This document shows, piece by piece, positions 11,583-19,411 of a stretch of 21,364 nucleotides of DNA; within the stretch, counting starts at the first letter, position 1, and each line of letters begins with the position of its first letter. Both the position numbers and the translations under genes were made by a program. The notes beneath the pieces are model-generated. The model saw nothing but the letters and a program-made list of their open reading frames with translations, was not told the DNA's origin and made no database searches. This DNA is from a virus. The stretch lies in the IMG/VR virus record IMGVR_UViG_3300023176_003451, positions 1 to 21,364 of that record; one strand, 5' to 3'.

Positions 11583-13073
11583 TTAGTGTGTTTGATACCA
11601 GTTATTACCAATCATAGCGTCAGAAGCTAGTGGTACATTCATGTTTAAGAATTCACCTGCTACTCTGACATAGTTATTAGCGAAGAGTTCCATCTCTTCT
11701 AGGTCTTTTTTGTGTACTGACCACTGTACCTCATCGTGCATCCAGATTACTTGATGAGCTTCTAACTGTGCTTGCCTTACCCAATGATCTAAGAAGATCA
11801 TACCGTACTTCATTACAATAGCACCAGCAGATTGAAGGAGAGTGTTAAGAGCTTTGTGTGTTTCAGGTAGACCATCCCACCCTTTCCTCATGTGGAGAGT
11901 CCTACCATCTAGGCCAACAATCTTACCAGAACTAGCCTCATTAGTCAACCTGTTAATAAGGTTATCCAGCTTAGGCAATCCATTAAGAAAGTTAGCTCTC
12001 ATCTCAGCACCTTCCTTCTTACCTCCTCCTACTTGTGCTCCTAGGTTAGCGTCACCAGCTCCATATAGGAAAGCGTAGAAGAAAGTTTTAGCATGATCCC
12101 TAGTAGGTAGACCTGCTAGCTCTTGGTTGTAGCTATGGATGTCACCATTAAGCAAGATGTCCGTATAGTTAGGATCATTCATGTAATGGCATAGCATCCT
12201 AGCTTCTAAGCCAGCAGCATCAGAGCCTAGGAATACATGGTCTTCATTGTCAGGTATGAACAAGCTACGTAACTGCTTACCATACACTGACCTAGCAGCA
12301 GGGATGTTAACTACTACCTTGTAGTTAGCCCTGAATGTAGGGGTAGCACAAGGGTTACACCCTGCACCTAACTTACCATCAGGTCTGAGCTTATCTAGCA
12401 AACCTTTGGTCAGTGATCGTCTATGAGACAAGACTACTCGCTTCATAACCAGACCACCGACACTACCACTTACTGACTTCAAAGAGTCCTCAGTAATCTT
12501 AGGAGAAGTAGGTATGTACCTTTGGTTAAGCATGAACTTAGCTAAGGATTTCCTGTTACGGACACCATTGTAGTTCATCTCCTTAAGCCTCAGGTCTTTG
12601 AAGTTAGCTGACTTGTCTTCTACTAAGTTCTTAGTGATGTAGTTATCTACCCACTCTGCTGCATTGTCTAGGCCAACTAACTTCTTAGTGTTCCACTCAG
12701 TAGGTTTCCAACCGTGGTCGATTAGTACACGCTTAACTAGGTCAGTCTTACCCATGTCAAAATCAGTGTACCAGACTCTACTGAATGGGCCACCTACCCA
12801 CTCCTCAGGTATGCCGTGAGCTTCACAGTATAACTTAGGCCAATGAGCTAGCTTGCCACTCTTAAGGAAAGGTTTCTTGTAGGCATCAGCTACGTTCTTC
12901 ATCTTAGGAAGTTGAGGTACAGCCTCAAGATCTACCTTTAGAATCTCCTCAGTCAGTTGGTGAACTAAGAAGCTAGCCTTGCGCTTATCAAAGTTAACTC
13001 CATGTATCTCCTGCTTAGACATGATGCTAGCGACTTGAGTCTCACACCACATAGGGAGGTTCATGTCTTGCAT
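11583..13073 (-). CDS. Family A DNA polymerase, polymerase domain only (T7 gp5-like, split)
   Basis: The 496-aa protein is the polymerase part of a T7-type enzyme. Its N-terminus matches the region just after the exonuclease domain of T7 gp5 (SIMSKQEIHGVNFDKR). Motif A is GSD285AAGLEAR, motif B runs R325DHAK329TFFY333AFLYGAG, motif C is MH446D447E448VQ, and it ends NNWYQTH, like the T7 C-terminus. The usual TGR of the thumb/palm junction is TFR (246-248). No 3'-5' exonuclease motifs are present; these are in the overlapping upstream gene. The ATG at 13073 is chosen because GGGAGGAG lies seven bases upstream; a longer frame would need an ATT start. Where T7 gp5 has its thioredoxin-binding thumb insert I cannot tell whether one is present. 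Confidence 0.93.
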   Translation of the reverse strand: MQDMNLPMWCETQVASIMSKQEIHGVNFDKRKASFLVHQLTEEILKVDLEAVPQLPKMKNVADAYKKPFLKSGKLAHWPKLYCEAHGIPEEWVGGPFSRVWYTDFDMGKTDLVKRVLIDHGWKPTEWNTKKLVGLDNAAEWVDNYITKNLVEDKSANFKDLRLKEMNYNGVRNRKSLAKFMLNQRYIPTSPKITEDSLKSVSGSVGGLVMKRVVLSHRRSLTKGLLDKLRPDGKLGAGCNPCATPTFRANYKVVVNIPAARSVYGKQLRSLFIPDNEDHVFLGSDAAGLEARMLCHYMNDPNYTDILLNGDIHSYNQELAGLPTRDHAKTFFYAFLYGAGDANLGAQVGGGKKEGAEMRANFLNGLPKLDNLINRLTNEASSGKIVGLDGRTLHMRKGWDGLPETHKALNTLLQSAGAIVMKYGMIFLDHWVRQAQLEAHQVIWMHDEVQWSVHKKDLEEMELFANNYVRVAGEFLNMNVPLASDAMIGNNWYQTH

Positions 13074-13585
13074 TTGTACTCCTCCCAATTGATAGGGTCT
13101 AAGTCGATAGCTTCAGGACTCATTGATTCAGTTAACCTGTTGAAGAGTGCCACTGTTACAACCACATCCTGCTTACAGTACTCACTTAACTCAGGAGTGT
13201 AGACACCATATACTTCTTCGATGTCTTCATCTCCGTCTTCTCCAACAGAACCTTTAAGGATTCCTAACCGTATACCCCAAGCCTTTAGGCTATGGCCTCC
13301 GTACCTATCAGGGTTAAGTGCTCTACTAGCTACCATTGTATCAAAGATAGGAGAAGTAATAGGGGTAGAAGTAATCTTCTCAACAGCAGGAGAATCGAAA
13401 GCTATGCCATTGTGAGCCACTAGTCTAGTGCTAGTGTTAAGGTACTCGACTAGCTTATCAACTTCCCACTCTCTCCACTCTATCCACTCACCCTCTTCAA
13501 TACAATATGTCCAAGCCACTGACATTAGGGTTAACACATCTAGGAATCCATCAGTTTCAATATCGAAGACTACTGTCTTACTCAC
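13061..13585 (-). CDS. 3'-5' proofreading exonuclease domain of the split T7-like DNA polymerase
   Basis: The 174-aa protein has the three DnaQ-like exonuclease motifs in order: FD8IE10TDG (Exo I), AHN59GIAFD64SP (Exo II) and Y136CKQD140VVVT (Exo III). Around them it follows T7 gp5 residue by residue (KAWGIRLGILKG; QDVVVTVALFNRL). It stops just where the polymerase gene begins: the two overlap by 13 bases in different frames, and the polymerase ribosome-binding site lies in this gene's last codons. It should therefore act as a separate proofreading subunit that associates with the polymerase. The start is GTG 13585 with a weak AGGG site; no better start is nearby. Confidence 0.92.
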   Translation of the reverse strand: MSKTVVFDIETDGFLDVLTLMSVAWTYCIEEGEWIEWREWEVDKLVEYLNTSTRLVAHNGIAFDSPAVEKITSTPITSPIFDTMVASRALNPDRYGGHSLKAWGIRLGILKGSVGEDGDEDIEEVYGVYTPELSEYCKQDVVVTVALFNRLTESMSPEAIDLDPINWEEYKCKT

Positions 13586-17048: not shown

Positions 17049-18008
17049 CTAAATCTCCCCCTCTTTCCAGTAATGTTCAATGTCTTTGACACTAGTGTTG
17101 TGAAGATGTAAGTAGTATACCACCTTCTCAATATTAGCTTCAACATACTTCACATAATCATCCCACTCATTAGCTACTGGGTAGCCTTCTGTGTCTACTC
17201 CTACGTCATCTGTATCGTAAGCGTTACCATACCACTCAGATAATCCCCAACCATGGTCACAGTCAGTTACTTCTCGTACTACTGGCAGGTCTAACCAATT
17301 AACCTTGAGGAGTTGATCAACTAGCTTCTCAACGTATACAAAGTTAACCTTCTCACTAGCTGTATGCTGGTGTATATAACCTGCTGCTACATTCACACAC
17401 TCAGGGATAAAGGTATTAAACTCTGAATTGTCAGTAAAGACCCCCTCGTTAGAAGGTAAGTGCCCCATGTCTAGCTCATCAGCTAGTGCCTCAGCAAACT
17501 CATCGCTAGCACCTTTACCAGTAGCTTGGTGTGTGATGATCTCATACTCACCAGCTCTGTCTACTTCTACACACATTAAGAAGGAAGATAGCCACTCTTG
17601 CATTGTGTCAGCAATAAAGCTAGCACCAATCAAGCCTTTCTCTTCTCCTACTGTGAAGAGATAAGTACCTCCTACACCTGCTTGTATCATTCGTAAGTTA
17701 GTGTAGATTCCTACCCCATCATCAGCACCTAAACACCCTACCTGTTTGTTCGCTACATGGTAGTAGTTCTTCTCTTCTAGAACCTGAACTACTGTAGCCT
17801 CCATAGTATGACAGGTGTCAATGTGTGCTACAAATAAGATAGGGTCATCATTAACTTTAACGTAGTGATTACCCATAGAGTCAGTAGTAAAGGAGTACCC
17901 TAGCTGCTTAATCATAGGCTGTAGGTATTGAGTTACAAAGTCGTACTCACTTGATGAACCATGACATCTGGCATAACTGAGGATCTTTTTAAGGGTTAAT
18001 GTTAGCAT
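17049..18008 (-). CDS. Zinc metallopeptidase/aminopeptidase-like protein (M20/M28/M42 clan)
   Basis: The 319-aa protein carries a full co-catalytic two-zinc site in the order typical of clan MH aminopeptidases: H62-x-D64 (VAHIDT), the bridging aspartate in GAD96DGVG, catalytic Glu plus ligand in GE122E123KG, an acidic ligand in VEVD150RAG and a histidine in IHQH215T. The blocks LGADDGVGIY and TVGEEKGLIGA match bacterial M42/M20 enzymes. The core of about 235 residues is shorter than most because the dimerisation domain is reduced or missing; the last 80 residues (aromatic and acidic, DCDHGWGLSEWYGN) have no counterpart I recognise. The ATG at 18008 follows AGGAG by about nine bases. It is the first gene after the non-coding region. 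Substrate could be a peptide, an amide-modified metabolite or an N-acyl amino acid. Confidence 0.82.
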   Translation of the reverse strand: MLTLTLKKILSYARCHGSSSEYDFVTQYLQPMIKQLGYSFTTDSMGNHYVKVNDDPILFVAHIDTCHTMEATVVQVLEEKNYYHVANKQVGCLGADDGVGIYTNLRMIQAGVGGTYLFTVGEEKGLIGASFIADTMQEWLSSFLMCVEVDRAGEYEIITHQATGKGASDEFAEALADELDMGHLPSNEGVFTDNSEFNTFIPECVNVAAGYIHQHTASEKVNFVYVEKLVDQLLKVNWLDLPVVREVTDCDHGWGLSEWYGNAYDTDDVGVDTEGYPVANEWDDYVKYVEANIEKVVYYLHLHNTSVKDIEHYWKEGEI

Positions 18009-18043
18009 AATACTACTCTCCTGAATTATTTTCTTGTTAATTG

Positions 18044-18072
18044 TTTACTTCTTCTTAAATTTATGCTATAAT
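18044..18072 (+). promoter_or_regulatory. Sigma70-like promoter sequence pointing rightward, against the genes
   Basis: TTTACT (18044-18049) is followed after 17 bases by a perfect TATAAT (18067-18072), with an extended -10 TG at 18064-18065. Its direction is opposite to every gene around it, and no + strand start codon with a ribosome-binding site follows, so a transcript would be antisense to the 411-aa gene. AT-richness of the region makes a chance match possible. Confidence 0.5.
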
Positions 18073-18081
18073 TATTACTAT

Positions 18082-18178
18082 CTTAAGGAATAGCTTAAGG
18101 AGTAGGGTAAGAAAGTAGAAATACTCCTTACTTACTTCTGATATTACTCCTTAGTAACTAACCTAGTGCTACTCCTTA
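18082..18178. repeat. Cluster of short direct and inverted repeats in the non-coding gap
   Basis: The non-coding gap runs from 18009 to 18175. It holds two tandem 12-base copies differing at one position (CTTAAGGAATAG and CTTAAGGAGTAG, 18082-18105). TAAGGAGTA occurs at 18096-18104, and its reverse complement occurs at 18122-18130, 18145-18153 and 18170-18178, the last ending at the stop of the 411-aa gene. The first pair can form a nine-base-pair stem. On the - strand the three copies look like ribosome-binding sites, but none precedes an ATG. Confidence 0.7.
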
Positions 18179-19411
18179 GTCATCGTCACTGTTACAGTAG
18201 CAGTCGTAGCAACAATCACCTACTCCATCTACCCAGTAAATGTCCTCCCTCTCTACCTCTTCTCCACAATTATCACACTCTGTTGTACTTTTAACCCCTA
18301 CCCCTGAGTCAATACAGCCATAGTAGCTACCACCATCAATAATGACAGACTCTTTACTATGATCAATACTGACAAAATTAGTACAACTGTCAAGGTAAGG
18401 TAGTAGTACATCGCCATTACAAGTAGTGTTATAAGACAGCTCATGGTCTAGTAGATCTTCATAGTTAATGTCGAAGTCCGTAAAGCTGATAATTTCTAGT
18501 CCATACTTATTGACATACCCGCTGTTCAGCTTAGAGCCGATAGACCTAGCTACATAAGGGAACTCTTTATTGCTAGAACAATCCTTGATCAGTAACAGTA
18601 AGCAGTCACTATCCTCATAAGCCATGGTAGGGTGTTCATCACTCTCTAGCTCATAGCACCCAGAAGTCTTAGACATGCAGCTGTCTAGGTTCTGATCCTC
18701 TGACAGCTGAATATAACACTCAGGAATGTAGTGATCAGTGATGAACATCTCAAACTGCTTAGGCTTAAAGCTTACATGTTTAGATAGATTAGTAACCTCA
18801 TACTCAGTGAACCCTACTGATCTTAACCAACGACCTAGCTTCATAGGGTTACGTACTAGCTCTATCTCACGAACCTCTTCTTTGTACCCACCAGCAGGGG
18901 AATAGTTCTCAAAAAATAGATCGATCTTAGGAGCTACTAATCCTCCTTCTTGAATACATAGCTTTAGGTAGAAGCTAAGAGTACAACGAGAATCTTTGAT
19001 GTTTCCCCAACCACCACCAGTACCATTAGTGAGCCTGAAGAAGCCATACATCCTGCTAGGTTGGGAGTAAAGAGCGGATAGTATAAACTTATTAGGGTCT
19101 TCGGTAACATTCTTGACCATAATATCTAAGAGACTACCTTCATTGTTACACATCAACCGCAGTAAGTCCTCATTTCTTAGGTCTTTCATGTAGCTAACTT
19201 CACGGTCACCTAACAATTCTTTCCAGAAGAGCTCGTTGTCCATGGAGTGAGAACCAATATCAGTGTGGTGGCTAATCTTACTCCTAACCCCCCTTTCGTC
19301 AAGAGCAACCTCTACCACTTTCTTAGCTTCTGGATAATACTTAGAGAAATTCTCCTTTGTATACTCTTCAATATACTCTACAATTTCAGGGATACTAGCA
19401 CGATAGTCCAT
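18176..19411 (-). CDS. Hypothetical 411-aa protein with C-terminal Cys cluster (zinc-ribbon-like)
   Basis: The protein starts at ATG 19411, five bases after AGAGGT. The N-terminal 200 residues are mixed helical with no motif that I recognise. Residues about 241-305 contain a series SCM (244-246), HPTMAYED (260-267), LLLLIKD, VARSIGS and YVNKYG (299-304); I recall a comparable 'SCM...YED...ARxxx...Y' layout in unannotated phage proteins, but cannot name the family. The last 35 residues hold C379-xx-C382 and C400-C401-xx-C404-x-C406, a plausible zinc ribbon, before an acidic tail (NSDDD). The mix of a beta-rich core and terminal zinc ribbon could indicate nucleic-acid or protein binding. It lies between a terminator and the non-coding gap, so it may be expressed on its own. 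Confidence 0.82.
   Translation of the reverse strand: MDYRASIPEIVEYIEEYTKENFSKYYPEAKKVVEVALDERGVRSKISHHTDIGSHSMDNELFWKELLGDREVSYMKDLRNEDLLRLMCNNEGSLLDIMVKNVTEDPNKFILSALYSQPSRMYGFFRLTNGTGGGWGNIKDSRCTLSFYLKLCIQEGGLVAPKIDLFFENYSPAGGYKEEVREIELVRNPMKLGRWLRSVGFTEYEVTNLSKHVSFKPKQFEMFITDHYIPECYIQLSEDQNLDSCMSKTSGCYELESDEHPTMAYEDSDCLLLLIKDCSSNKEFPYVARSIGSKLNSGYVNKYGLEIISFTDFDINYEDLLDHELSYNTTCNGDVLLPYLDSCTNFVSIDHSKESVIIDGGSYYGCIDSGVGVKSTTECDNCGEEVEREDIYWVDGVGDCCYDCYCNSDDD

Follow-up and report, generated by a model that had tools for sequence, protein, structure and literature searches.

A peptidase to which no role is assigned is annotated in hundreds of sequenced phages, many Klebsiella phages among them, and its family, judged by profile matches, is already catalogued and named in PHROG as phrog_4191 'peptidase', with members in Drulisvirus, Phimunavirus, Maculvirus and other phages. 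PMC6115819 places the Phimunavirus peptidase (IPR007484) among six conserved ORFs of the early region and gives it the sole putative function among the six. Related cellular enzymes are the PepT-like tripeptidases of family M20B, represented by the structures 3rza and 3gb0, and the M28 aminopeptidases, which are lid-less single-domain proteins. A precedent for a phage GNAT protein acting in host takeover is Rac of phiKMV-like phages (PMC7552054), which may be compared with the second protein considered below by description only; as excerpted, that paper describes Rac with an acetyl-CoA pocket and without a phage peptidase, and attributes the cleavage of RNAP alpha to host proteases.

The window, i.e. 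the whole stretch of 21,364 nucleotides analysed here (IMG/VR virus record IMGVR_UViG_3300023176_003451), shares 14,313 bases at 99.99% identity with a 40.5-kb IMG/VR record (3300023173_000036) and contains, precisely at 17049-18008 (minus strand), an ATG-started ORF encoding a 319-residue two-metal peptidase of the phrog_4191 family. Both these coordinates and residues H62, D64, D96, E122, E123, D150 and H215 are as an earlier note on this DNA, made by a model from the letters alone, had given them. The protein matches phrog_4191 with E 1.6e-65 over residues 5-266 of 319, and it passes the cut-off of Pfam M28 (PF04389) by a small margin (E 3.8e-5; 23.9 versus 21.3 bits), which two of its homologues miss; the match to the NCBIfam PepT-like model (E 4.6e-7) lies far below that model's own cut-off, and the comparison with M28 and M42 profiles that the note had proposed comes out in favour of the former, the cut-off of Pfam M42 (TET aminopeptidase) being missed (12.9 versus 23.2 bits). 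Profile family and ligands are those of the other phrog_4191 members, and the gene neighbourhood is similar, although the window peptidase shares just 28-36% identity with the aligned members from Autographiviridae and Thermus phages.

The active site is conserved throughout. The seven residues listed above do not vary among the 12 diverse phage relatives aligned, nor in any of the 65 rows of a larger alignment (the window and 64 of 80 loci, near-copies and some truncated copies being left out), and the same is true of R151, G189, N206, Y211 and E219 in both alignments, so that the loss of ligands in close homologues, which the note had held to speak against its reading, is not seen. Nor is the best structural match a non-peptidase fold, the second such outcome: in the AlphaFold model (mean pLDDT 89.4; about 90 or more across most of the core), the catalytic core (residues 1-245; 17274-18008, minus strand) most closely resembles PepT-like 3rza and 3gb0 (Z-score 25.5; r.m.s.d. 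2.2 Å, 226-227 residues, 23% identity; residues 4-241 matched), with Xaa-His dipeptidase, TET, PepT, DapE and LysK-type enzymes ranking close behind. The Foldseek ranking agrees with this placement, and a profile built from the 65 rows again finds 3gb0 and 3rza first among the PDB sequences (E 9.7e-13 and 1.4e-12). Five metal ligands and the catalytic acids occur in the order and fold of a two-metal enzyme, and we concur with the note that the window peptidase, as far as alignment and model can tell, is a complete clan MH two-metal enzyme and probably active.

Fold, ligand order and motif pattern of the catalytic domain are those of the PepT-like M20B enzymes, and structure and sequence alike rank PepT-like entries above M28. 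The window peptidase differs from them, however, in two respects: it carries an added variable C-terminal tail, and the lid/dimerisation domain, which in M20B lies between the third and the last metal ligands, is missing, since residues 133-188 provide 55 positions where 3rza uses 166 (residues 173-339). It is thus related to M20B and not a member of it. Two irregular copies were seen in other genomes: Pseudomonas phage YMC11/06/C171 has two ORFs in place of one (L181:5184-5986), by disruption or sequencing error, and one copy in a huge phage has a single TAA within the match.

The note had described the C-terminal part as a novel domain of about 80 residues. Alignment and model show otherwise: residues 246-319 with the stop codon (17049-17273, minus strand) form a variable tail with no conserved domain, its length after R245 ranging from 23 to 135 residues across the 65 rows, its mean pairwise identity being 0.21 versus 0.46 for the core, and the model falling mostly below pLDDT 50 at residues 253-277 before predicted helices follow.

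Matches to the peptidase family occur in 397 of 50,697 phage records (E 0.01), with 61 covering at least 80% of the query. In each of the 13 Autographiviridae records viewed, the peptidase adjoins the same large gene, mostly annotated as hypothetical, and primase, helicase and DNA polymerase follow the pair in most of these records; the exceptions are AC2, whose stretch ends before primase and helicase, and Pasto, which has an integrase instead. For KP34-like phages, where the peptidase stands beside replication genes, the note is therefore wrong to exclude such enzymes from a T7-like replication set. The large neighbours of the peptidases in other phages belong to phrog_13313 or phrog_6980, for which PHROG lists no function, and the window encodes a 411-residue partner protein of the same family (18176-19411, minus strand): its match to phrog_13313 is weak (E 6.3e-6), and alignment and HMM assign it there.

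Pairing of peptidase and partner is near-constant and independent of gene order, as is firmly established by searches in both directions. Starting from the peptidase, the partner is present in 72 of 79 viral loci (L017-L095), in 63 of them adjacent on the same strand and in nine elsewhere in the locus (seven of the nine on the opposite strand); the survey of related phages proposed in the note thus finds both the gene and its neighbour conserved. Six of the seven loci without it have fewer than 700 bases upstream (contig edges) and one (L025) has 7.9 kb; a second HMM run on the same viral loci missed the partner in L018 and L020. Starting from the partner, the peptidase lies directly beside it in 79 of 80 loci, the 80th ending 2 bases past the partner, with some contigs shared between the two sets. 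Of 66 loci on bacterial-genome contigs, 51 encode a peptidase of the family (E < 1e-35), accompanied by the partner in 38 cases; the remaining 15 encode longer enzymes of cellular type, and the partner is found in none of them. When full peptidases are made non-redundant at 90% identity, 127 of 151 have a partner within 3 kb; 14 of the other 24 have less than 2.5 kb of flanking DNA in one direction, and seven of the last ten are surplus copies from two huge phages. In a linkage control covering 91 loci, the partner family is present in 83, DNA polymerase in 46 and terminase in 39. What is new here is this tight, order-independent pairing with a single uncharacterised family, and the possible GNAT fold of the latter: a search of open-access main texts yielded no description of the pair, and the available parts of PMC6115819, PMC7824862, PMC7552054, PMC6775973, PMC12195039 and PMC7291057 do not mention it. 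On two viral contigs (L055:7154-9715; L031:1233-2003), partner-like ORFs of about 260-270 residues flank or follow the peptidase in place of the long partner.

The pair reaches well beyond the Autographiviridae. With the partner of a 635-kb uncultured phage as the query, tblastn finds Cellulophaga phages of the Pervagoviridae, which we take to be crAss-like, and Thermus phage TSP4, and in the three records viewed (Cellulophaga, TSP4) the order is reversed, the partner immediately following a gene annotated as a peptidase or a metal-dependent hydrolase. Iteration from a single huge-phage partner recovers 213 ORFs, the window partner included. Podophages, crAss-like phages and Thermus siphophages share the pair, with one gene or the other coming first. 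The iterated search detects no partner in phages with more distant peptidase relatives (Thermus P23-45, Bacillus, Enterococcus, Lactococcus). In TSP4 the peptidase is flanked by a partner copy on either side (L266:1386-4543); its relative P23-45, as said, shows none. A Mesorhizobium contig holds two partner-peptidase pairs in tandem (L208:4514-11371) with an RtcB-like gene nearby. Huge uncultured phages (L257-L265, W01-W04; LR756502, LR745206, LR756504, LR756501) carry 4-8 peptidase copies and at least seven partner copies each, two of the partner matches reading through TAA codons; the partner of huge phages also exists in a compact form of 334-337 residues. Across four of them, with short fragments set aside, 22 peptidases compare with 47 partner places; 11 peptidases lie within 10 kb of a partner (expected 5.4, p 0.013) and just four within 2.5 kb (expected 1.6, p 0.09), so that strict pairing is rejected for these multi-copy genomes.

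We then have a 'stray peptidase' that becomes one half of a defined two-gene system, kept in either order across distant phages, and the nature of the other half bears on what the system may do. In 59 of 59 partner rows C245, M246, R289, P338 and D341 are invariant; the N-terminal region is variable, the model reaches good confidence only past residue 190 or so, and a cysteine cluster at the C-terminus, with C379, C382 and C404 nearly invariant, marks a putative zinc ribbon (residues 379-404; 18200-18277, minus strand). Profile searches link the window partner to no Pfam family, the 59 rows give only scattered weak Pfam matches, and two partner alignments compared with PDB sequences give only matches at chance level; Pfam Leu_Phe_trans was sought in the window record and control genomes, a search uninformative on distant kinship. 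In Foldseek no PDB match to the model reaches E 0.001 (E 0.4 or worse), with GNAT-fold proteins crowding the top rows. Structural comparison of the alpha/beta core that contains C245, M246 and R289 (residues 214-318; 18458-18772, minus strand) gives 39 rows titled acetyltransferases among the best 50, and the other 11, including ATE1, L-PGS, RibT and malonyl-CoA decarboxylase, are presumably GNAT-fold as well; the Z-scores for GNAT-type rows, 3.6-5.5 over 70-91 residues, fall short of 8, the value under which the tool advises caution. On the strength of these models, we somewhat favour a GNAT fold for the partner core. Compared with GNAT acyl- and aminoacyltransferases (acetyltransferases, ATE1, L-PGS), the partner has an extra N-terminal part and the putative zinc ribbon, and the CoA pyrophosphate loop motif [QR]xxGx[GA] is no commoner than chance (15 of 193 members versus 22 in shuffles). 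This argues against an ordinary acetyltransferase, and for the same reason the partner may be something other than a transferase; to our knowledge, GNAT relatives that depend on aminoacyl-tRNA likewise do without the motif.

We suggest that the lid-less PepT-like peptidase and its partner form a two-gene module acting on the same acyl or aminoacyl group in host takeover, a proposal to which we give slightly less than an even chance. That the two act jointly on some host molecule is probable in our analysis, because both genes are almost always side by side in very different phages; the chemistry of the module, the addition or removal of an acyl or aminoacyl group, is what we infer from the two folds. 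The peptidase would be an active zinc aminopeptidase, dipeptidase or acylase, and its active site, devoid of the lid, would have the more open character seen in M28 aminopeptidases; the enzyme could then act on the ends of peptides or proteins or on N-acylated amino groups. More tentatively, the partner might be a GNAT-fold transferase without the usual acetyl-CoA loop, one of the two proteins might add or present an acyl or aminoacyl group (N-terminal or amide) that the other removes, and the target might be a host protein, an aminoacyl-tRNA or a small molecule. The context supports a role in takeover: the pair precedes the primase in KP34-like phages, in Rhizobium phage Pasto it adjoins an ArdA-like antirestriction gene, and Rac offers a precedent for a phage GNAT at work there. 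That both proteins are made is indicated by their detection in particles of one Klebsiella phage, described below. Were the partner indeed a transferase, phages would possess a widespread strategy of modifying proteins or metabolites that comes with its own eraser.

In a more specific version, which we consider rather unlikely, the transferase lacking the CoA loop would tag the ends of host or phage proteins, perhaps from aminoacyl-tRNA, and the lid-less M20-like peptidase would remove the tag; if this were true, podophages, crAss-like phages and Thermus siphophages would share a module for control by protein tagging whose two genes are multiplied in huge phages. Equally improbable in our view is a partner that is no enzyme and instead uses its zinc ribbon and variable N-terminal part to capture a target and hand it over to the peptidase, or is itself trimmed. 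The tight pairing in either order, the variable N-terminal region next to a conserved cysteine cluster and the chance-level frequency of the CoA-loop motif would all suit such an adaptor or substrate; on the other hand, the five invariant residues of the partner resemble a binding or catalytic site and not a scaffold. The peptidase tail also bears on this point. Tails shorter than 40 residues are mostly partnerless, just one of 127 partnered peptidases having one: tails of at least 40 residues occur in 126 of the 127, versus eight of the ten unpartnered peptidases that have enough flanking sequence in both directions (Fisher p 0.014, rank test p 0.61). Partner presence, however, follows lineage in a peptidase tree of 69 rows (38 of 137 partnered copies, randomly drawn, and 31 of 39 unpartnered, eight being dropped for a short core), and the link between tail and partner may simply be inherited; as a marker of partner dependence, the tail is thus suggestive only. 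Separately, near-tailless short peptidases on contigs binned with diverse bacteria (L210, L225, L229, L230, L232, L236, L241) have no partner and possibly constitute a solo branch of the family.

Plain recycling of peptides, in which a PepT-like di- or tripeptidase supplies the phage with amino acids salvaged from degraded host protein, we judge to be distinctly unlikely. It would accord with tripeptidase/PepT and Xaa-His dipeptidases being the nearest structures and profiles. The M20B lid, however, helps to hold small peptides, and the phage enzyme has none; moreover, the peptidase is tied in most loci to a single partner that belongs to no known metabolic family, a pairing that recycling would render superfluous. 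The constant GNAT-like partner favours the acyl or aminoacyl module over this explanation.

At a similarly low probability we place the view that both proteins are packaged and injected, rather than made early. It draws on Klebsiella phage fHe-Kpn01, whose partner (gp12) and peptidase (gp13) are annotated as detected by LC-MS/MS in purified particles (PMC7291057); among the 22 early and replication genes gp02-gp23 only these two and gp14, the gene next to the pair, are flagged as particle-associated. PMC7291057 states that some particle-associated proteins are carried over to act early. Yet the flag is also borne by RNA polymerase, exonuclease, endonuclease VII and endolysin, which makes carry-over of abundant cell proteins equally likely; given the RNA polymerase and the endolysin, the detection therefore shows that gp12 and gp13 are made, not that they are packaged.

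Small-molecule chemistry, with a GNAT-fold synthase akin to LuxI or FeeM and an M20-like acylase making and breaking an amide signal such as an N-acyl amino acid, appears very improbable: the two folds do include such synthases (LuxI, FeeM) and acylases, and the M20 deacylases DapE, ArgE and LysK rank close behind PepT in structure, but Pfam searches matched no LuxI- or FeeM-like family and no recognised signalling gene lies nearby. Least probable of all is a counter-defence in which the peptidase or the pair removes or changes acyl groups set on aminoacyl-tRNA by host GNAT toxins, for although GNAT toxins do act on aminoacyl-tRNA, and the pair has RtcB nearby in two Cellulophaga phages and at one Mesorhizobium locus and the antirestriction gene beside it in Pasto, these are hints from neighbourhood only, and five proteins compared with the anti-phage defence profiles of PADLOC-DB gave 0 matches.

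Returning to the module proposed above and to its place in the window, a spacer of 167 bases (18009-18175, minus strand) separates partner and peptidase. The note had regarded the peptidase as the first gene after a non-coding gap and, as such, made early. Its position after a gap stands, and placement among early, pre-primase genes agrees with how PMC6115819 defines these for PhiM1-like phages; an early transcript start within the gap is not supported, the partner ORF preceding it on the same strand. A site scan of the spacer finds no minus-strand site resembling a promoter or terminator, and the spacer folds no better than shuffles (z -0.79), so that the idea of a promoter, a terminator or a structured RNA ahead of the peptidase finds no support.

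The 40.5-kb record related to the window differs from phages known to host phrog_4191 in that it gives no match to a single-subunit T7-like RNA polymerase, whereas the same search finds one in KpV48 and in a second record (L068). By its gene content, the window phage recalls T7 relatives through its replication genes alone and does not look like a T7-like Autographivirus. Its DNA polymerase (11583-13585) appears as two adjacent ORFs, one with the family-A polymerase domain and one upstream that by eye is exonuclease-like.
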